Shown here piece by piece: positions 27,942 to 42,774 of a stretch of DNA of 64,000 bases. The position numbers and the translations under genes were made by a program. The notes under the pieces are model-generated. The model had not been told where the DNA came from, ran no database searches, and worked only from the letters and a program-made list of their open reading frames with translations. Source of the DNA: Fistulifera solaris. Taxonomy: Eukaryota > Bacillariophyta > Bacillariophyceae > Naviculales > Stauroneidaceae. The DNA lies in contig AP026125.1 of the NCBI GenBank assembly GCA_030295235.1, positions 682,001 to 746,000 on the forward strand. The letters run 5' to 3'. The first letter of the stretch is position 1. Every line of letters begins with the position of its first letter.

Positions 27942-30900
27942 TTACAAGTCGGCTCTGTCCACTGTCCCACTTCGAACGTGGCGAGTGTTCTGAATTTCCT
28001 CACTATCGTCAAAGTCTTTGTCTATGCTTTCAACCATCGCCATGCCTGTCAGTGGACATTCAGCTGCAATCAGACCGTCCAACTCCCCTTGAAACTCGGA
28101 CCTCGCTTTTTCTTTATCATTCAGACGTCCCAAGTGATCGTCCAGTTCTGCAACACGAAATCGTTGTTTGTCGTTGAGATGGGGTATAACGAGAGACCTT
28201 AGTGAGCTGGAAAGGAAAACATATCCAGAAGGGAAAACATAGAAGGGTTCGCCTGAACCAAGCACTGGCTTGTTTGTCACCGCACAGCGGGCATCGCTGC
28301 TGAGTTTCATATGATGGTTTTGAAGTCTTTGGATTTCCGCTCGATACAAATCGCACGTCCGATCGCATTCACCCATCTCATTCAGTAAACGGTCGATTTT
28401 CGTTGAATACGAAGTAAGCGCTTCGCATATTTCGTCTTTGATTTCGTCAATCCTTGTAAAATCAGGCCTGTCGATTACAAATGTTAGCCATGCTTTCAAC
28501 TGAAATAAAAGCACGCGATTTACGTACAGAAATGGAAGCACATCTTCAATCGAAAGTACATCGGGTCCGCAATCCTTCAACACGCTGACAACTCTGGCAA
28601 CGACCTCTCTTCCATGTAAACTACCATCAGACGCGGCATTCTTTGCAATCATGAGCCACAGTCGCTTCCGTTCTTCGAGTTCTACACTTTCTTGAGCCAA
28701 CTCACGCGCTAATTCGGGGTCGACTTTCAAACAAAGTTCCACAGCTTGGTACCTCATCCCAAAACCCATGTACAGCTTGACAGCAGAGCGGAAATGACGA
28801 CCCGAGCTTAACACAGTACGTAGCGCATATGACATGTCAAGTGGTCCCATCTCATCGGTTGAGATGGAGAGACTGTCTTCATTGAGCATGGCTTGCTTTG
28901 TAGCTGAAGACGTTTCAAAGGGAACATATTTTGTGAGAAAATGCAGCAATGGTTCTTCGTCGTCAAGCTTGATGTAGAGCGACAAAAGGTAACTGAAGAT
29001 AGCACTATTTCGGCATCCTTGCTGAATAACTCCTTCGAAATATTTGATTAAAATGCTCGAATCCTCAACGAATGAAGAGGCGTGGTGAAGACTTGATTCA
29101 ATTTTTAGTTCGTAGCCTTCGGAGGAAAGGGTCGATCCGTCGACATGAATATCTAATGCTTCTTTGCTCTCTTCTTTTCCAAAGGAACTTTTCGCTCGCT
29201 CCTCCATAGCTCGTCGTACCTGAAGACGCTGGCACCTCGTCCTTTCATAGTTCATCATTGAAGGAAGCAACTTCAGGGGACTCAATCCCTTTGAGTATTG
29301 TACTAGGAAGCTTTCAACCGCCTCTACAGGTATCCATGTTAGAAATGTCAGGGCGTGTTTGTAGTAAAGTGGTTCCGCGAGATCAAATGGAGCGTCGTTG
29401 AGGATTTTTAGGGCCGAAGATGCTCCAGTCTTTCAGTATAAAAACTGTTAGAAGGGCGTTCATCCAAACCAATATTTTCTAGATGATGAACTTACTGATT
29501 GAGATCCGATACTAAGAGAAGCATTCACCGCGGTGCTTAAATCGCCACTCTTTGCTGCAAAAGCAGCGCACTCACTGGCTCCAATGTCATGCGAAGCAAG
29601 AATTTTTAGTACCGTCTTCGCGTCCATAATCTCGATGTTAGCGTCAAGAAACTGTGCCAGCATTCCAGTACCTCCAGTGGACATCGGTCCGTTGTTGCAA
29701 TCCATCATCTCTTCTCTTTCATGGAGAATGAGTTCAGTAAGCCACGCACCAATCATCGTACAAGTCATTTTATCATCCTTCACACGGCCCGCTCGCATTT
29801 TGTCGTTCAAGTATGTTATGAGAGGCACATTTGAAGTGGTAAGGCAATCAAGAGCTTCTGGTGAAAGGTCCAGAGAGCTGCTGTCGTCAATACCAAGTCT
29901 TGGTAAAGCAAGTCGAATAGATGAATCCGCGAAAGGCTTCAAAACAGGAGGACATTGGGCCATGTACTTTGCTGCCAATTCTGCACGGCCGTGACTTAAA
30001 TGATACTCTGCTCTAACTGCAGTGACGACGGCTTTCTGAGCATTGTTGGTGCACAAAGTTTTAGCCTGTTCAAAAAGTGCCTCTTGAGCCTTTTTCTTCA
30101 GCGGTTAAAACCGTCGGAACATTGTTCCTTGCCCGAGCCTCTTTTGCACCAGCACCATGAGACGGGGTAGACGGCATACTTTTATTTTTTGATTGTAAGT
30201 CCAGACACTTTTTCAGGGTAAATTTCCAAACGTCACGATCTTCTTGCGTTGATGATATGTGCACCAGAGATCGCCCCTTCCGGAGCCACACTTGATCCGG
30301 CCGTCGAACATCCATCAAAAGCTCACCGACGCCAATCAACGTCTCGTCGGCGTTACCTTGAGAACCAACATCAACAAGTTCTTTCTGGATCATCTTTTGA
30401 GCTACGCGACTCAGGAAACGAATCTCGTTCAACTCATTCAAGGTAATCAAATGGTGCGGAGTAAGTGCGAGCGACACAGGCGTGTCCGAAATCGACTTGC
30501 TTCCACCTTCGTACGGCATTATGCCAGATTCAATTATCATGCCGCTACTGCTGCCTGTAAGCACAGCCGAACTCGACAGTGATCGATCAATAGTGCCATA
30601 AAATATTCCTGTTGCAGTGCGCAATCCGAAATGGTCGTTACAAATGCGCAAATCCGCAAAATCGACGGATCCTGGAAGTTCCATCAGAGAAGAATGCTGT
30701 TGATCTGCCATGACCATCGCAAAAGACGAATTGTGTGCAGAGTAAAATGTATAAAACCGCGTGCGTTTGCTTCTTCCAGATGTAGCTGCCATAACCAACA
30801 ATCCCGTCCTCAAGCGTTCGAAATGAATTCCTGTAACGGCAGCACCAACTTCTGTTAGATCCGCACTATCGCTTGCATACAGCTTGTGCAAGAGAATTGG

Positions 30901-31879
30901 TTGAGATAGCATCTCCTCCTGGTCTTCGCTGTTGGAGGAAGCGAGAGAATACTCGTAAATCTCGCCATAGCTCGTTCCAAGTAGTATTCGCTTACTGGAT
31001 CCTTCAGTTCCCCGTTCATTATCCCAAGCGACTGCCGTCACGTACGAGCCTGTTGTTAGACCCTTTTGGATTTTTGGACTGAAGGGTTTCATCTCGACGC
31101 CCTGCCACAAAACTGGCAGAAATACCCGTAAGAGCGTCTTTTGTCAAAAGACTACCATCTGCGTTCCGGCCAAAACCCGCAAGTTTACTAACTTGTCGTT
31201 GGCTACTGTGAAGATAATAAGCTTCACCATTGATTGCCGAAAGAAAGGTGTGACTCGCGGTAGGATCCACAAAGACGTGCGCAATGCGGCTATTTCCTTC
31301 CACCGGTGGCGGTAACGCGACCCACTGATCTGCCATGCCTCCGCGACGAACGTTCCAACGGCTCACCAGCCGCAATGTCGGTTGACCGGCGCACTCTAAA
31401 GCCGCAACAATCCATCCATTGGCGGCCGTCACACAGCCGGGCCGCGGCGGGCGGATCGGACGCGACGACCCGGCATCCACCATCTCGTCATCGGACTTTT
31501 CGGAAGCAGCGGATGTATTGAGCACGCGACTCATGAAGCCAGATAAACCGTAGCCGCCGTCGCTACTGCGTCCATCTTCCGTCGTAGTAGCAGCTTGCGC
31601 GGTATCATTTTGTGAAGAAGCATTTGTCTTTCCCGTGCTGAAAGGAGTATTTTTGGTTATTCCAAGCTGCTGCCCGGCTTGTTTGCTTGCCTTGAGTAGT
31701 CGATTGTAATTCTGCAAAGACAAAGTACTCGGAATAGGCCATTCTACGTGGCGAGCGGCCCAAATGGGTGGTTCTCCCGGAGGAGCAGCTCGACGAGGAC
31801 GCCCTGACAGGATGCGGTGCTGTCGTGACGAGGCCGACGAAGCTCGAGTGCTTTCGTCGAAGGGATTTGTACTACTCAT
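27942..31879 (-). CDS. VPS18: VPS18/Pep3, class C Vps (HOPS/CORVET) subunit
   Basis: Two exons (31879-29496, 29429-27942) give about 1289 aa. After a low-complexity N-tail comes the propeller region (TAVAWDNERG, ILLGTSYGEIYEYSL, VTGIHFERLRTGLLVMAATS, SVDFADLRICNDHFG). The alpha-solenoid follows (AEYHLSHGRAELAAKYMAQC, LLPSMMNYERTRC, DVLSIEDVLPFLYVN). The end corresponds to the family RING (AECPLTGMAMVESIDKDF), but most zinc-binding cysteines are replaced. HOPS/CORVET tether late endosomes and vacuoles. Frame changes lie at A run 31109-31112 and T run 30091-30095 (plus strand), each one extra base; correction gives ASLWQGVEMKPF and AEEKAQEALFEQAKTLC. It converges with the BRCT gene, with an 84-bp gap. 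Confidence 0.85.
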
Positions 31880-34473: not shown

Positions 34474-37400
34474 CTACCTGAAATACACAATGGATCTCTT
34501 CTCTTCTAATTCCAGCTTCTTCTCGAGCAGTTCTTTCCGTCTCCTTTCTAATTTCTCTCGTATTGCGCGTTTCATCTCATCGCCGTTTGCGTCAGGTGTT
34601 GTACCTTTCGTTGGCGGAGCAGATTCACGTGGGACGTTTGATAAGTTGTTGCTGGCAAGCTCAGTGTTATTGGATGCCAGAGATGCAGTGTCTACCAGCT
34701 GCAGCGCAGATTTTTGATCCGTGTTTCCTTCTTCTGACTTATTGTTCAAGGAAGGTTCAGAACCAACATCGTTGGCAGCGGCGTCACTTACACTATTGAA
34801 CTGTTCTTTGTAGGCTCGAGACATTTCGCTGATTTCTGTACGCCGTTCTCCCCCAAATCCGTCTAAAACAATCTCAACGTTTTTGGTAGGTCCATCTTTC
34901 ATGGAAGTGTCCGATGTTCCTAGACTCTCGTCTATTGAAAAAAGAGACGACCCGGAATAAGCCGATGTCTTTCGTGGCTGAAGATCAGCATTCGGGTTCG
35001 CATCGTTAAATGGCAGACTTTCTAAATCGTCAGAAAGATGACTCAACACTGGGCCCTCCAGGCCCGATATTCTCGTCGTCCCGATGTGCTTTACATTGAA
35101 CCTGCTGCCATTTGCGCTTCCTGCCGTTGCATCTGTTCCTTGTCTTCCACCGTTCTTCCTGACCTTGTATGCTTGAATAATCATAGGCACGTAAATAAGT
35201 AGCTGCATCGACATGCTTATGGCAAAAACAAGAAAAACCTGAAGAAAATATCGAGCCGTAGGGTTATCACTGTCAATCAGAAAAAGCATAGGAAATCCGA
35301 CAGCAATCAGCTGAAACCAGCTGAAGAGTCCAACGCCCATGTTTTTAGCTTCGCTGAATTCGTCGCTTATATTTCGGGCTTGATAGGCCTGCTTACAAGC
35401 AACGAACAATGCCACAACATTCACAGCGCCCACTAGCATGGTCATCGTAAAAGAAATAGGTGTGCGACTGCCATCGTCGCTACTTTGACAGCTTCCGTAT
35501 GTGTTCCACGGCTCCCCTGCGATTTCGAGCCGTACAAATCGTAAGGGGTCAGCGAGAGTCCAGACAAGCATGAACGTAAAATTCAATGTAAACAACAGAG
35601 CAAACGGGGCCATGACGTCTACCTCCCTGACTCTCATTCGGCGCGAAGTTGCCCCAAAGAGCTTATTGATGCGCCATAGCTTTGAGAACAAAGCAGACAT
35701 AGCGACCGTGAATCCCATACTTAAGAGCCATGGCGATGCCATACAAGCGATGTCGCAACCGCGCTGCGAGCTTGTTCCATCGTCAATACTCAGGGGGATA
35801 ATCGCAAGCGCCATAACCAGCATCCCGGTCGAAATCGTCATGAGAAAGAAAGGCTGAAGAGTTTTCACAATTCGCAGGTTGCGGTAGTACCATACCCATC
35901 CGGATAGAAAAAGGGACGTGATGACAGCAACAGCTGTAAGAGTAAAACCAAGATACTTGATCGGCCCAAGATGGTTGAGGTTTTCCACCGGAGAAACACG
36001 CATTAAAACCTCAAAGGTTGCATCCTGGCCAGCACAGCCGGGGAAATTGCCACCATTTAGCACAGCGAATGCTACAGTACCTTGGGCAGTTCCAGGCTCG
36101 AGTTCTGAAGTAACAGCTTGAAAGGAATACTTAATTCGTCCGCCGGAGGGAACGGAAATTGCTTCGCCTTCCACTACTTGGACGGTGTCGCCTGATTCAA
36201 ACTTAGCAGTAGAGTAGTTGAGCCAAGCTGGTTTTGACTTGGGAACAACCATCACCTGATCAAGCTCGCTGTTGACCATCGAAATCTGGCCACTAGCCTC
36301 GTCCTTGGAACCTTGAAGTCCATCAAATTCTAATGCTTCACTTAAGAACGAAACTGCAATTCTTTCCGGGCACTTCTCACATATCGATAATTCTGGTTGC
36401 CAGAAAGTACCCGGAACACAATCGTCTGCAGTCTGAATAAAATTAAGAACTGTATCCGCGGAAGTATCGTTCACAATCCGACCGTTAATCGCAGCCTCAT
36501 AAGGAGAATCTAGATCCTGCAAGTAGTCTGTGACAATATCCTGCAGCAGAAGCGCATCAGAAGTCTTTCCAGGCTCCTCTCCTGGTGTAACAAGCTCGTC
36601 AACTAAAAATTCAGGGAACGGATCGAACCCTCCGCACATGAAGCTGTCCGTACAAAACTTATAAAGCTTCAATTGCTCAAGCGGTGCATATTCTTCTGCC
36701 TCAGAGTCCCATACTTCGATAGCCACAAGTCTGTCACCCTCTCTTTCCTTGTTAAAAACGACCTTCAAACCGGATACTTGTAGAAGCCTATCGCCGTCAT
36801 TCGTGTTCATTCCCTCAAAAGTGGCCACATTAATGGAGTAATTGAACATTTTGAAAACCGAAATACCATTCATAACGCCAGTACATGGGTTGTTTGGAAA
36901 TGGAAAGCCAGCCCAGATATCCGAGACACGTACATCGCCAGCTTCCCAACCCGATCCACGATATCCTCCGCTACTTGTAACAGCAAAGTCGGCTTTTGAC
37001 CACCACCGAAGCGCATCGGTAAACAGGTTTCCCAATTCACATTCACCGGCTTTACAGCGTCGATAGTCTTCCTCGCGACTGGCAGGCATAAAGGTAGCCT
37101 GGCCAACGACTGGATCATTCGCGGCTGCCTGGTTCGCTTGCTCCCTCAAAGCGTCAATGTTTGACGCGTACTCTTCATCTTTCAATGTAGCATTTAGGGT
37201 ATCCAGGCCATGTCGAATAAACTCGACACCGGTCACATTTTTCCCATCTGGGCTAAGCGTAAGTTTATGATGATAGTATTCTTCCGCACTGAGTGCGACG
37301 CTCGTCACCCATACGTTGCCAACTTTTTGAGGAGTCTCGAAAGCTGGGTCGTTTCCATCGACATCGATAAGAAGTGCGGGAGGATTTACGTGGTTGGTGA

Positions 37401-38163
37401 CGGCTGTCTTGAATGCTTCGTATTTTTCGAAACTATCAGCAAAGACCACAACAGGTATCCAACATCGGCTGTCACTATGGTCTGTTCGGTTCAAAAACGT
37501 ATCATAAATGCCGTATATTTCACCAGAGCAACCGTTCTGAACGTTGACACGGGCAATATAATCAAGTACACCCAGAGTTGACTCAATTTGATTGAAAGTC
37601 ATTGGCTGACCGTCATTTATATTGACGAGAACTGCCAAGCGAGTTTCGTCGTCAAAAAAGACAGGTATTGTGTATCGCGACCAACTTATACTGGGAGGTA
37701 TCGCTACATTTGTAAGCAAATAAGGAAAGTCTTCACTTTGCAACCCCGACAAGTCTCGCTGAGAAATGTCAAAATCTCCATTGTGTTGTGTCAAAAGACT
37801 CGGAGGGGCCGTGAAGACACGAAAACCGAAAATGTCCTGAAAGACTAATCGATTGACATTCCATACCAATGGATGCATCTGCACAAAGGGACTGTCTCTA
37901 TCCGCAAACGGCAGAACCAGCGAGGGCTCCCCTTTTCCGTAGTATCGCAAGAAAGCCGTAACAGCAGCCACTCCGCCCACGCAAGATTCGTCCTGTGCAT
38001 CCGCACAATCCGTCAACTCTCCGCTCAACAAAGGCGCTCCCGAAAGAACGAAATGAATGGTTTCGTTCGCCATCGTATCATTCACGTTGTCTTGTTCGCT
38101 CATGGTGATGAGAACAAAAAAGCTCGTTTTGAGGAGAATGTCTTCAAAGCGAAACACCCCCAT
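34474..38163 (-). CDS. 5'-nucleotidase-like ectodomain fused to a class C GPCR seven-helix domain
   Basis: 1229 aa in one uninterrupted exon. The ATG at 38163 is the first in frame; it gives a short hydrophobic leader (LLKTSFFVLI). Residues ~30-330 resemble a 5'-nucleotidase metallophosphatase domain by position, but the metal and phosphate motifs (DxHG, GNHE, GHTH) are not visible. Residues ~365-515 match the 5'-nucleotidase C-terminal domain (CELGNLFTDALRWWSKADFA, RLLQVSGLKVVF). A Cys pair and beta-rich stalk follow. Seven membrane helices (about 740-995) of GABA-B type come next (VWYYRNLRIVKTLQPFFLMT, LWRINKLF, PMLFLID). The cytoplasmic tail of ~230 aa ends in a coiled coil (RAIREKLERRRKELLEKKLE). 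It is probably a plasma-membrane receptor; the ligand may be a nucleotide-like molecule bound by an inactive enzyme fold, which is inference. Confidence 0.85.
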   Translation of the reverse strand: MGVFRFEDILLKTSFFVLITMSEQDNVNDTMANETIHFVLSGAPLLSGELTDCADAQDESCVGGVAAVTAFLRYYGKGEPSLVLPFADRDSPFVQMHPLVWNVNRLVFQDIFGFRVFTAPPSLLTQHNGDFDISQRDLSGLQSEDFPYLLTNVAIPPSISWSRYTIPVFFDDETRLAVLVNINDGQPMTFNQIESTLGVLDYIARVNVQNGCSGEIYGIYDTFLNRTDHSDSRCWIPVVVFADSFEKYEAFKTAVTNHVNPPALLIDVDGNDPAFETPQKVGNVWVTSVALSAEEYYHHKLTLSPDGKNVTGVEFIRHGLDTLNATLKDEEYASNIDALREQANQAAANDPVVGQATFMPASREEDYRRCKAGECELGNLFTDALRWWSKADFAVTSSGGYRGSGWEAGDVRVSDIWAGFPFPNNPCTGVMNGISVFKMFNYSINVATFEGMNTNDGDRLLQVSGLKVVFNKEREGDRLVAIEVWDSEAEEYAPLEQLKLYKFCTDSFMCGGFDPFPEFLVDELVTPGEEPGKTSDALLLQDIVTDYLQDLDSPYEAAINGRIVNDTSADTVLNFIQTADDCVPGTFWQPELSICEKCPERIAVSFLSEALEFDGLQGSKDEASGQISMVNSELDQVMVVPKSKPAWLNYSTAKFESGDTVQVVEGEAISVPSGGRIKYSFQAVTSELEPGTAQGTVAFAVLNGGNFPGCAGQDATFEVLMRVSPVENLNHLGPIKYLGFTLTAVAVITSLFLSGWVWYYRNLRIVKTLQPFFLMTISTGMLVMALAIIPLSIDDGTSSQRGCDIACMASPWLLSMGFTVAMSALFSKLWRINKLFGATSRRMRVREVDVMAPFALLFTLNFTFMLVWTLADPLRFVRLEIAGEPWNTYGSCQSSDDGSRTPISFTMTMLVGAVNVVALFVACKQAYQARNISDEFSEAKNMGVGLFSWFQLIAVGFPMLFLIDSDNPTARYFLQVFLVFAISMSMQLLIYVPMIIQAYKVRKNGGRQGTDATAGSANGSRFNVKHIGTTRISGLEGPVLSHLSDDLESLPFNDANPNADLQPRKTSAYSGSSLFSIDESLGTSDTSMKDGPTKNVEIVLDGFGGERRTEISEMSRAYKEQFNSVSDAAANDVGSEPSLNNKSEEGNTDQKSALQLVDTASLASNNTELASNNLSNVPRESAPPTKGTTPDANGDEMKRAIREKLERRRKELLEKKLELEEKRSIVYFR

Positions 38164-38877
38164 CGAATCTCCGCTGCAGAGACACCGGGGCACAAAAAAG
38201 CACGATAGGGGCGAGGATCGAGGATGGCATTTTCGAGATATTTCTTGGTCCTTTTTACTGTTTGCCTCGACCTCGGGCGTCGGAGTTCGGAGTTATTTAG
38301 AACGACACTTCCACATGTCGCTCGTGCACTTGGGTGCCGTTTCGGTACATTTCGATCAATACTGAATATAAAGTTTAACCGTTAATTAACTGTGTCGGAA
38401 CAGAGCTATAATGTAAAATTTGAGAGAACAATTATGACCCTTTGTCATAAGTCCTTTATCGCTCCTATACTGAGAGTATGGACTACTTTGTAGTTATGAT
38501 TTTCGGACTGTACCTTCTATCCAAGTGTTAGGCAGGCTAAAGGCTAAAATCTAAAATAGGTCTTCAGAGAGAGCTTGGGAGATTAGAAATTAGAAGCTAA
38601 AAAGAGATCAACATTTTTTGTCAATTTGACTATATCAGATGCCTTTATTAGCAACTGCTGTGCTAACCTGATACCGAATGTGACAATTTCCCATGTGCTA
38701 AACTACGGACTAGACCCGAAGGCAAGAACGCAAATGAAAGGGCTCGATGGTGTTACTTCACAAAGCGCAAGTCAATTCGTTTCAAATTACGACGTCTTTG
38801 CACGCTTCGCACTCTGAATCTTCTCCTTTTACCTTCAGAACGGTACTTGCGTTTGAGCCTAGCCTTCCTCACGGCTT
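38164..38877. other. Intergenic region
   Basis: About 710 bp between two leftward genes (5' flank of the GPCR fusion, 3' flank of BMS1). AT-rich and repetitive in places (38,530-38,600: TAAAGGCTAAAA-like words). No gene is supported. Confidence 0.4.
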
Positions 38878-41800
38878 CTAGTCTGACTTCTTTTGAGCAT
38901 TCGACTTCTCAACCTGACTTTTTCGTTCCTCTTTCTTCGACTTTCGGATTGCCTGCTTCGCTTTGCGGATTGTATTCAATGCTTGGATAAAACTTTCCTT
39001 TCGTCTCTCATCGGCCTCCATTATGACCGCTCTTTTGGCTAGGTAACCTTTCTTGTTTCGCTGGCGCTCATCCTTAGGCTTGCTAGCATACGGTAAAGCT
39101 TCTTCGAGTTTTTTCGGCACAACGAGCTTTGTCTTGACTTGTTCAGGACGTTCGACAGGCTTATAAATTGAATCAGGATTCACTTCGATCGGAGTCTGAG
39201 TCTCAAGTTGTAACTGTATCAAGTAAAGCCAGTGAGTTACGATAGTCCTCTCCAGACAACTTTCACCGTCAAACTTACCTGTGTCTTCCCTTTCATGGAC
39301 CTCCACCCGCTCAACCCGTTCTCCGATATATGGTTAGTCACAGGGTTATAATAACGCTTGATATCTACCGGCATCCAAGTGCGACAGAATACGATATCTG
39401 ACATGAGAATCTTATCTTCAAAGGTCGCACGAAAAGATCCCGGCTGACCCTCCCGGAGCGCCTTTTTGATTGATCCTCGTATTCCGCTGACGGTTTTTAT
39501 ACTTGCGCCTTCAAATCGACTTACTTCTAGGTCGCTGTTAAACATCCCCGAAATAAAGGCAGTGTTCTTGTATATTTTCGAAGGGGTACCTACAAGCTTG
39601 AGCTTTTTCACAACAGGGAATGAAGCATTCAACTCCAAAACCACCCCGGTTGCAGCTATACGGAAGCCCGAAATATTATCTGTCACCCTTTGAATCGCCA
39701 AGATTCCTGTATTTGGTGGACATTGAGGGCCATAGAATGTAGCAAAACAGTGCATATGCTCGGGCGTATACTTGATATGTCTCTGGCGCCCATTAGTATC
39801 CTCAGTGGATCTGTTGATCACAGAGACTAAGTGTGAGAAAACCGCTTTTGTAGGGCATTGTGGTATGCAGCATACTTACAAAACTGGAATGCTCTGGAAA
39901 CGTCTCCAACCAATCGAAAACACGAGAGGGTCATTGCTTCGAAGAATTTTCTTGTGCCATCTATGCTTCTTAAACCGACATCTGGTAAGGGAGAGAGAGG
40001 TTTCCTGAGTTGTCAGTCCTCCTAAAACTAGAGGCATCTTTGGATCGAACCCGGTGACAAACCCCGACGGTATCCCTTCAATCTTCACTCTACAGTACAG
40101 TCCCTGACGGAAACCTTCATGGCGCAATCGTGACCGCTCTCCATCGATACCGAATTCTTCTTTGTTCCTAGCAAGGCGAGCTTCCTTTTCCCTTTTCAAA
40201 GCCTCGATATATTCGTTTTCAGCAGACTCATCATTCATGTCACCACCATCTTGCTTTTTCTCGTTGTCGTAGTCGTCGTCAAATTTACTTTTCTGCTCAG
40301 CCTTCTTTTTCGCATAAAAATCACGGAGCTCTTCGTCCGTCAGACCTTCTGGAGGTAAATCATCAATAGAACCAGTCGCATCCCGACCGGAGGAAGTAAA
40401 TTTCTCTCCACTTTCAAGATCTTCGAAGTCTCCGTACTCTTCTTCCTCTTCCTTTCCCCAGTTTCCGGTTACAAATTTGTTGCGAATGCTCTCAACCAAA
40501 CATCCATCGCTGTCTTCCAACCAAGGTGTAACGTTCAAAGGAGCTTCTACCATTCGACAAGAGTCTTCCTCGTCCAATACTAACGCCTCCACGTGGTTGG
40601 ACCCGGAAAGAGAGTTGTTGGCACGCGATCCAGTTACCTTTGGCTTGAAGAACTCGTCGTCATCATCGGATGAACTTTCGTCCTCGTCTTCAAGTGCCTC
40701 GTTGATCATGCTGGATTTTTGCGATTGACCGTAGACAAGCTCCTGAAGATTTATCATTCCTGATTCTCGCTCCAAAAATGATTGCTTAGCCCGTTCCGCG
40801 ATACTGGACTTCCAGTGATTAACTCCCAACGATGTTCCTTCGATTTCGTCTTCAGATAGATTTTCATCGTCGCTGCTTTCTGTGCCTTCTTCTTCCGATT
40901 CTTCATCAATTTCGTCATCCGATGACTCCTCGTCTTCTTCTTCGTCGTCCTTTTCATCGCCACTATCGCTTTCATTTTCGTCATCACTTTCACTTTCCAT
41001 ATCCTCATTTAAATCACCCAGAGCATCTCCTCGACGAGAAGACCGACGCCGATCTGTGTCAGATCCCTCTGATTCCGAGTCGTCATCGTCGTCCTCGCTC
41101 TCCTCTTCACTATAAGAAGATGATTCCTCAGCTACAATGGCTTTGCTGCCTTTAAAAATTCGAAACGACGACTTCTTCATTTTTTCATCGACACTTGTTC
41201 TAACATCTTGCAAATTCTTTAACATGCCAGCTGGTGCATCTGAATCGTACTCCACTTCTTCTTCCTCTTCCTCATCATTGTCGGCATCGCCATCGTCCTC
41301 TTTGCGTCTCGAAATTATGGCTAAATTTTCCTTCTTAGTATAGTTGGCTTGTCGAATGTCAATGTAGACAGCGTCCTTGTCGAAAGTGACAGCCCCTACA
41401 TCCGAAAGCGGAGCAAACAACAGTGCATCTTTCTTACTGAGTGTCGTCCGATCACGCTCCTTATCTGGTAGTGGACAAGGATCCGGTAAAACGCTAATAT
41501 CCGCCATGTCGTAATCCCCGACTCCAATGAGATGAACTTTCATCTTAGGATTCAGGTGCGTCCCTCGAACAAATCCATAAAAAACCATGGTTCGGTCGCA
41601 TTCGGGATCATTTTCCACATCGTTAGGATTTGTTATATCTTCATGCCGATCAACAACAATGTACGGGTGAGTATTTTTCCATACTAAAGGTCGGAACTGC
41701 AGATTGAATAAAAGAATCAGATGACCGCTTTCAAAGCCTTATATCACTATCATATCAAATGAACGTACCTTTGCTCGAGAAATAAAGAGAGTGAGTTGTT

Positions 41801-42507
41801 TCACTTCATGTTTCAAGTACTTTCCATTGATTACACCGGAGAAGTAGAGCATCTTTGCTCCATCGTAAATCTCAGTCCAGAACCGTTGCTTCAGCAGCTT
41901 CTTTGTCTTTCTCAGATTCTTTGCCGTTTTAAATTGATCCAGATGCGTGAAAACTCCCATGACTTTCGGAAAACCATGCGTTTGCAAAATATTGAGAAAT
42001 TCGAATGTCTCCATTTCGAACCCAAACTTGGCGTCGACGCACAAGAGAACGAGGTCGGCGATTTTGGCGCAATCCAGCATGCCCGCCGTATCGTTCGGAC
42101 ACTCGAGGAGAGTGATGCGTTTCTTCTTTCCCGTAACGACAGTAATGGGTCCAGTAACGGTAGTCAAGTTGTGATTGGTGTACATTTTGACGAGCGAACG
42201 AATGAGTGTTGACTTGCCGACGCCGGGCGGTCCCATGACAACCACCATGGTCGGAGGAGTCTCGTGTAATTCCGTAGCTCTGCGATCATGGAGCGGAACG
42301 TATTCTTTCTTCTGCGATCGGTCAAGGTTTCTTTGAATATTTCGTTTGGTACGAACGACATTGGCAACGGAAAAGGCTCGGTGATTGTGACGCTCAACGC
42401 GCGTGTTGTCCTTCTTTGCCTTTTTGTCTTTTTTTCTTTTCCTTGGCTCCGACACCGGCTTTCCGGCCCTTGTGCGAGTGGTGCTCGATCTTATCTCCTT
42501 TCTCCAT
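38878..42507 (-). CDS. BMS1: BMS1 ribosome-biogenesis GTPase
   Basis: Four exons (42507-41769, 41696-39880, 39810-39279, 39213-38878) encode 1140 aa. The GTPase P-loop is [26 protein letters not shown]-like [24 protein letters not shown] and [20 protein letters not shown] follow, then [15 protein letters not shown] and the conserved [20 protein letters not shown] very long Asp/Glu/Ser-rich linker leads to [10 protein letters not shown], the KYTPEHMHC motif and YNPVTN near the end. BMS1 acts with Rcl1 in the small-subunit processome. One T run (42429-42435, plus strand) has one base too many for the Lys-rich N-terminus [18 protein letters not shown] to stay in frame. All other joins are exact. 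Confidence 0.93.
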
Positions 42508-42774
42508 GTTGGCAATTAGAATGGAACAAGAAATTTAGCGCATTGCTACCTTGTGCATGTGACGAGAAAGCTGAAAGAAAAAGAAAAAAATAAAAGCAGG
42601 GTGCTTTTTTGGATGGTGTCCTGCGCACGGTTGAACGGAGGACAGACGTACAGTGACCCAATGTGTACAGGGAGCTACAGTTGCTAAGGCGAATCAATTA
42701 GTTTAACCACTTTTAAATGCATGAACGATTTAAGGTAATGCGAGAACATTTAGGTAAAAAGTTCTCTGAAAAAG

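Follow-up and report, generated by a model that had tools for sequence, protein, structure and literature searches.

A stretch of 64,000 nucleotides of Fistulifera solaris DNA (contig AP026125.1; "the window" below means this whole stretch) was analyzed with regard to one gene on its reverse strand. The gene encodes a predicted class C G protein-coupled receptor (GPCR) of the GABA-B type, whose ectodomain resembles a 5′-nucleotidase. Translation of positions 34474-38163 (minus strand) gave one uninterrupted frame of 1229 amino acids with no inner stop. An earlier note on this DNA had described a single 3.7-kb coding exon starting at 38163. The uninterrupted frame was confirmed, while the start was not, its 20 extra residues being without support. 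Aligned at the DNA level, the homoeologous copy on contig C6 does not preserve the frame ahead of the Met codon at 38103-38101, whereas after this codon the two copies are highly identical. The close relative P0003 begins with MSET... at the place matching this codon. Because the frame is lost upstream in the C6 copy and the start of P0003 matches, residue 21 is the likely start. Thus, on the basis of translation, the C6 alignment and the N-termini of relatives, the coding frame probably spans 34474..38103 (minus strand), corresponding to 1209 amino acids plus the stop codon. Residues are numbered below as in protein P0001, counted from 38163.

A Pfam search of P0001 revealed 5_nucleotid_C (PF02872) at residues 352-517 (E-value 2.7e-24; 86.5 bits against a cut-off of 23.6) and 7tm_3 at residues 734-993 (E-value 1e-31; 111 bits against a cut-off of 33.5). 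Nothing else exceeded its Pfam cut-off. The 5′-nucleotidase C-terminal domain and the seven-helix GABA-B-type domain named in the earlier note were therefore found by the hidden Markov model search that it had proposed; Metallophos, the third profile, was not matched up to an E-value of 10. No Pfam match to a Venus-flytrap ectodomain (ANF or periplasmic-binding) was found up to the same E-value. The top matches among PDB sequences were GABA-B receptors for the seven-transmembrane (7TM) part, and venom 5′-nucleotidases and CD73 for the C-domain.

The N-domain was not recognized by sequence. The alignment of residues 30-350 to 53 enzymes with hhalign gave a probability of 0.4%, and hhalign of the family N-domain against three enzymes gave no significant match. 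In a profile comparison with UshA alone, and in a profile search of PDB sequences, the matches were confined to the C-domain or the 7TM part. The identity of the N-domain thus had to be established by structure comparison. In the superposition of the predicted model on residues 27-549 of CD73, the N-domain takes the place of the metallophosphatase half, and residues 34-566 match the two-domain 5′-nucleotidase fold. This agrees with the placement of a metallophosphatase-like domain in the earlier note, though sequence search does not recognize it. The 79 UshA frames used with hhalign were chosen by the GNHEF pattern, and other loci by metal-motif patterns, so that they serve as a yardstick of the fold and not as a control for the motifs.

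The ectodomain begins with the N-domain (residues 35-329; 37177..38061, minus strand, as are all features of this gene), a metallophosphatase fold without catalytic metal motifs, i.e., a pseudo-metallophosphatase, delimited by the model, the CD73 superposition and the motif scan. According to the secondary structure of the model, it is followed by an inter-domain helix (residues 330-348; 37120..37176) at the place of the CD73 linker helix 318-336. The C-domain (residues 349-566; 36466..37119), supported by PF02872 and by structure, is the nucleoside-binding C-terminal domain of 5′-nucleotidases. In the juxtamembrane part (residues 582-725; 35989..36420), column counts and the model show invariant cysteines 582, 595 and 598 and then a strand-rich stretch; Pfam did not match the cysteine-rich domain of metabotropic glutamate receptors in this part. 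The class C seven-helix core of the GABA-B type occupies residues 733-1003 (35155..35967), and the tail residues 1004-1229 (34477..35154), with a charged helix at about 1195-1229, as seen from the translation and from the tails of relatives.

Loss of the catalytic site was analyzed by a motif scan. In 5′-nucleotidases, catalysis depends on a two-metal site and a catalytic His, marked by the motifs DxH, GDxxxG, GNHE and GHxH. We scanned 69 family members, comprising 60 GPCR-type and 9 cyclase-type rows of the alignment. GNH[ED] was found in 0/69, GH[TSDA][HQN] in 1/69, and D.H[GSAY] and GDxxxG in 4/69 each. All nine of these hits are stray, lying outside the position at which the motif in question is expected. 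In 86 control enzymes, the same motifs were present in 85, 86, 86 and 86 of 86, respectively. These controls amount to only two kinds when collapsed at the chosen overlap, almost all being closely similar to streptococcal Nt5e, and nine diverse enzymes were added. All nine carry GNH[ED] and eight carry all four motifs; the remaining one, L037, has only GNHD and GHDH in place. It belongs to the ordinary nucleotidases that the same genome also encodes, together with the L041 frame, in which the four metal motifs stand at the usual spacing.

Residues were mapped with a script that aligns the family and UshA profiles with the secondary structure of the model, at six settings; for UshA we assumed the metal-ligand numbering D41, H43, D84, N116, H117, H217 and H252. 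The bridging ligand D84 fell on D88, and N141 on N152, at all six settings. N116, H117 and H217 were unaligned at all six, and H43 was unaligned at four and lay on S47 at two. The degenerate metal site (37357..38037) would comprise A43/L45 for UshA D41/H43, D88 for D84, P121/S122 for N116/H117, D243 for H217 and D269 for H252. Of these pairs only D84 with D88 is robust; the others were obtained by counting positions from the ends of strands and helices in two models and are less sure. We call the metal site dead because the motifs are absent, and not because of single residue pairs. The earlier observation that the metal motifs are not visible was therefore extended to all the family members scanned, and the alignment of metal ligands to UshA showed that one counterpart, D84 to D88, is kept. 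The results support the conclusion, drawn at the level of sequence, that the ectodomain is a 5′-nucleotidase without catalytic metal motifs, a putatively dead enzyme.

The nucleobase pocket is largely retained. In CD73, according to passages of a structural study (PMC8677862), adenine is stacked between Phe417 and Phe500, while Asn390 and Asp506 bind the ribose and Arg354 and Arg395 the phosphate. In P0001, the kept pocket consists of R402, F422, N424 and the aromatic residue 508 (36640..36960), which were mapped to UshA R410, F429, N431 and F498 at all six settings. Position 422 is F in 57 and Y in 3 of the 60 GPCR-type rows, and F in 9/9 cyclase-type rows. Position 508 is Y in 24, F in 23 and W in 12 of the GPCR-type rows (F in 8 and Y in 1 of the cyclase-type). 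R402, at the phosphate site of CD73 Arg395, is present in 59/60 and 9/9 rows, and N424 in 58/60 and 9/9. When ten GPCR-type rows without a listed 7tm_3 were omitted, the counts were 50/50 for F/Y at 422 and 49/50 each for an aromatic residue at 508, R402 and N424. Among the 533 ectodomain columns ranked by entropy, R402 is 24th, N424 37th, F422 43rd, position 508 189th and position 514 369th.

Nine relatives (P0044, P0053 and P0151-P0157) carry the same ectodomain joined, according to Pfam, to a class III cyclase domain. A strong hydrophobic segment lies between the two parts in 9/9, and in P0053 the cyclase part contains another, weaker one. The cyclase motif FTD(I/V)xxST was found in 7/9 and GD(S/C)F in 9/9. 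P0153 carries the taxonomy identifier of the kinetoplastid Neobodo designis, and P0155 and P0156 we take, from their transcript names, to be from Euglena. In a tree of 68 of the 69 ectodomains, the nine cyclase-type rows all fall to the same side of a branch (support 87/86); P0157 and P0053 form long branches, for which the tool warns of false joins. Because two unrelated outputs bear the same ectodomain, a ligand-sensing module is the simplest reading, which suggests that the nucleotidase-like ectodomain can be reused as a sensor and stands where a flytrap domain is usual. As regards the proposal of the earlier note that a dead enzyme is reused as a ligand sensor, the first half is upheld, and the sensor idea gains indirect support from this second output. 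In the genome itself, class III cyclase domains gave 72 matches, some of which are pieces of one gene.

At least 43 proteins, one of them identical to P0001, were found at E ≤ 0.001. The domain pairing is not due to chance, as 37 of the 43 bear both domains. The protein searches scored about 8000 candidates sharing the most words, so that the counts are minimum values and relatives in holozoans may have escaped detection. P0143, P0144, P0149-P0157 and the Thalassiosira profunda protein come from the best 120 of 185 matches in one search. The named GPCR-type relatives are from diatoms, namely Cylindrotheca closterium, Nitzschia inconspicua, a Bacillariaceae metagenome-assembled genome, Cyclotella cryptica, Cyclotella cf. 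meneghiniana, Seminavis robusta and T. profunda; the fusion is present in other diatoms. Both domains lie on one transcript in P0017 (MMETSP transcriptome) and in P0143 and P0144 (MMETSP0014, labelled with a Nitzschia taxonomy identifier). The objection that the ectodomain and the seven-helix part might be separate transcripts is thus answered for the family, by transcripts of other diatoms. Ten of the 60 GPCR-type rows lack a listed 7tm_3 and may be truncated (P0036, P0037, P0038, P0042, P0043, P0048, P0050, P0054, P0149 and P0150); they were kept in the 60-row column counts. P0002, identical to P0001, and P0158, with 7tm_3 only, were left out of the alignment. P0149 is an MMETSP transcript of 759 amino acids with the ectodomain and a hydrophobic N-terminus and without a listed 7TM or cyclase part, possibly a truncated or free form of the ectodomain.

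Several features bear on the topology of the ectodomain. Eleven of its cysteine columns are filled in at least 41 of the 41-43 rows having a residue there, and a twelfth in 39/41. Sequons at 441 and 565 occur in 37/43 and 42/43 rows. Relative to shuffled sequences (37 of the 43 rows), the ectodomain had 1.42 times and the tail 0.99 times the number of sequons; as the ratio was 1.64 for the 7TM region, this is a weak measure. The sequon counts omit P0036, P0037, P0038, P0042, P0043 and P0044. Signal peptides were sought with a simple hydrophobicity rule, which missed P0054 though its start is signal-like by eye. A signal-like N-terminus was present in 8/8 cyclase-type rows having the first strand (P0156 lacks it). 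In 28 of the 52 GPCR-type rows with the first strand, the protein starts no more than 12 residues before it. The mean hydrophobicity of this strand was 1.38 in models without an N-terminal extension (n = 46) versus 1.05 in the cyclase types. A hydrophobic first strand would suit a targeting role and proves nothing. An overlapping upstream ATG frame at 38144-38230 (minus strand) begins with MPSSILAPIVLFCAPVSLQ, which is signal-peptide-like. It was rejected as the signal exon of the gene, since its ATG at 38230 is absent from the C6 copy and there is no convincing splice to the receptor. A hidden signal-peptide exon was likewise rejected: seven possible GT-AG joins lead to hydrophobic starts, none with a CAG or TAG acceptor.

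The output part retains the features of class C receptors. The cysteines of the disulfide between transmembrane helix 3 (TM3) and extracellular loop 2 are present in 53/55 (C807) and 51/51 (C892) of the rows with a residue there. The basic residues of TM3 and the acidic residue of TM6 are found in 48 (K828), 49 (R831) and 48 (E938) of 60 rows, with 9, 9 and 10 gaps, respectively. Such TM3/TM6 residues are called crucial in class C receptors in a passage by Port et al. (PMC3727952). A G-alpha, the sole G-protein subunit searched for, is encoded in the same genome (E-value 3.5e-97). The tail had been described as ending in a coiled coil. A charged helix does exist in P0001, but it is not a family trait: among 12 tails compared by eye, P0003 is the only other one that clearly has it, and P0005 and P0006 resemble it in part. 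In six of the 12, YF followed by one further residue forms the C-terminus (YFR in P0001 and P0003, YFL in P0005, YFV in P0006, YFT in P0007 and YFK in P0008), perhaps a sorting or binding signal.

The genome assembly containing the gene amounts to 51.7 Mb in 61 contigs, many of which are paired, with matching copies, as would presumably fit an allodiploid diatom such as Fistulifera solaris. The homoeologous copy (C6:679525-683206, L034) is 89% identical and is split over two frames with a stop in one; it may be a pseudogene or an assembly error. The genome has 22 matches to 7tm_3, some being pieces of one gene. When genome matches were compared by position, 7tm_3 and 5_nucleotid_C were paired only in the C5 gene described here and its C6 copy. 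Ten other frames of the genome were scanned, of which seven contain the flytrap-type Peripla_BP_4, five of these with 7tm_3 in the same frame. On one side of the gene in the window (39237-42515), adjoining frames match the BMS1/Tsr1 family of ribosome biogenesis (RIBIOP_C, AARP2CN and the GTPase part) and apparently form one intron-split gene. A Vps18/Pep3 beta-propeller gene in two overlapping frames lies at 30070-31876.

Computation showed a single frame, a fold containing both nucleotidase domains, the absence of catalytic metal motifs, a pocket that is mostly retained, the fusion in other diatoms and the ectodomain in front of a cyclase. On the basis of these results, we consider it probable that the gene encodes a GABA-B-like class C GPCR with a complete, catalytically dead 5′-nucleotidase as extracellular sensor, a ligand-driven clamshell that would replace the Venus flytrap. 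The ectodomain most likely is a ligand sensor working like the Venus flytrap. The pocket of the C-domain would bind a small molecule, such as a nucleoside, nucleotide or look-alike, that probably contains a flat aromatic ring and may also bear an acidic group. The two lobes would then rotate as in UshA and CD73, and the stalk, rich in Cys and in strands, would transmit their motion to the seven-helix core and a G protein. In this way, the clamshell would stand in for the flytrap of ordinary class C receptors. In enzymes of the CD73 type, a hinge rotation of up to 114 degrees is given in part of PMC8677862.

Several observations weigh against this interpretation. The overall predicted template modelling score of the model is 0.54, the arrangement of parts and the open-like pose being unsure, and a third open CD73 entry, 4h2f, superposes only at 6.0 Å. 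At four of the six alignment settings UshA H252 fell on H258 (on D269 at two), and at four D41 fell on D58 (on A43 and L45 at one each). With D88 and D243 mostly acidic, some metal could, to judge from the residues, still bind; as the acidic residue matching the bridging ligand is kept, we do not claim the absence of any metal. In the pocket, position 514 (the Asp506 ribose site, aligned with UshA D504 at five of six settings) is D in 31 and E in 6 of 60 GPCR-type rows, with D in P0001. Position 397 (the CD73 Asn390 site) is S in 17, T in 13, N in 11, A in 10, P in 5 and G in 3, with T in P0001. The counts at 422, 508 and 402, set against those at 514 and 397, indicate that ring stacking and the anion contact are kept while the sugar contacts drift. 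Since 514 is variable and 397 is not kept, the ligand need not be a nucleotide; nucleotides are a plausible candidate. For the CD73 Arg354 site no clear counterpart was found, UshA R379 being without a partner at all six settings, and the kept pocket residues could be structural. A hydrophobic N-terminal extension was found in 6/52 GPCR-type rows, among which P0001 was counted through its 20 doubtful residues.

Better attachment to surfaces was observed for Phaeodactylum transformants with GPCR1A or GPCR4, as stated in a passage of PMC7452957, these two receptors being known here by the attachment effect and not by the type of ectodomain. This result, together with W406, the Cys columns and other invariant features that could serve folding, would fit an ectodomain that is a structural, adhesion or dimerisation part and not a small-molecule sensor, with partners or surface contact setting the signalling. 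We regard this as unlikely, given that the nucleobase clamp and the phosphate Arg are kept in nearly all rows despite the loss of catalytic motifs, and that the same ectodomain occurs on two unrelated outputs, as expected of a ligand sensor. It is decidedly improbable that catalysis persists in the ectodomain through an unusual metal site made up of carboxylates only (D88, D243 and D/E at 269), so that the receptor would degrade as well as sense its ligand. No setting gave a counterpart for the catalytic His or the Asn ligand, GNH[ED] is absent throughout, and in the cyclase-type rows position 243 is Ser in 3/9 and position 269 acidic in only 1/9. What speaks for such a site is D88, aligned with the bridging ligand at every setting and acidic in 56 of the 57 GPCR-type rows having the residue (D in 52, E in 4) and D in 9/9 cyclase-type rows, together with acidic residues at 243 in 50/60 and at 269 in 34/60 GPCR-type rows. 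The conserved acidic cluster was rejected as a new metal site, its entropy ranks among the ectodomain columns (71 for D88, 187 for D243 and 451 for D269) being too weak. A cytosolic N-domain sensing an internal ligand, to which the many gene models without a signal peptide, starting close to the first strand and rarely extended, would point, is very hard to credit in view of the conserved Cys columns and sequons (the excess of sequons being a weak measure), the signal-like N-termini of the cyclase types, and the homology of the 7TM part to GABA-B, which implies an outer N-terminus, as class C receptors have their N-terminus outside.

A receptor with a dead nucleotidase as its sensor can be compared with three known systems. 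GABA-B receptors, heterodimers that bind GABA and couple to Gi, have a flytrap, whereas P0001 has a dead two-domain nucleotidase and a stalk with Cys and strand-rich parts instead; the 12 tails of its family show no evident shared C-terminal coiled coil. With UshA and CD73 it shares both domains and the helix between them in the same order, the nucleobase clamp, the pocket Asn and one phosphate Arg, and it differs from them by the lack of catalytic metal motifs and by fusion to a membrane signalling unit. The cyclase-type relatives resemble kinetoplastid receptor adenylate cyclases in combining a class III cyclase with an ectodomain and a strong hydrophobic segment, 8/9 with a signal-like start, but differ in the dead nucleotidase ectodomain. 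Known trypanosome receptor adenylate cyclases carry a flytrap-like ectodomain.

The pairing of 5_nucleotid_C with 7tm_3 is already in print. Krishnan et al. in 2012 described 5_nucleotid_C in a Glutamate-family GPCR of Capsaspora as not reported before (PMC3251606). A figure legend of Port et al. from 2013 names "5-nucleotide-C" among diatom GPCR domains (PMC3727952), and an eLife article of 2025 gives 5_nucleotid_C with Ephrin_rec_like in Glutamate receptors of choanoflagellates and other non-metazoan holozoans (PMC12716839). These receptors have the same two Pfam domains as P0001, the likeness being one of domain names. In the relevant passages of the three papers only the C-terminal domain is named, with nothing on the N-domain, metal ligands, pocket or cyclase fusions. 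Among the titles listed in searches of the open-licence PMC literature, several of which gave the top of long lists, none on metal-site loss or cyclase fusions was found. The pseudoenzyme analysis and the cyclase swap are what is fresh here.

We tentatively propose, as a possibility that goes further than the data on this gene, that the dead 5′-nucleotidase clamshell may be a second general-purpose bilobed membrane sensor of eukaryotes beside the Venus flytrap, placed on class C GPCRs in diatoms and on membrane-anchored class III cyclases in Euglenozoa. It might read extracellular nucleosides, nucleotides or similar heteroaromatics, as a diatom chemosense for dissolved organic phosphorus or cell damage, and the first strand, which once bound metal and is now hydrophobic, may have a second role as a targeting signal in many of the diatom proteins. 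To our knowledge, few ligands of diatom receptors are known. If the sensor is of the nucleotide type and built on a hinge-rotating enzyme, the search for a ligand would be narrow and could be put to the test at once. One dead enzyme joined to unrelated membrane outputs would then clearly exemplify how an enzyme can become a sensor, and it could tie the behaviour of diatoms to the chemistry of phosphorus or to signals given off by broken cells.

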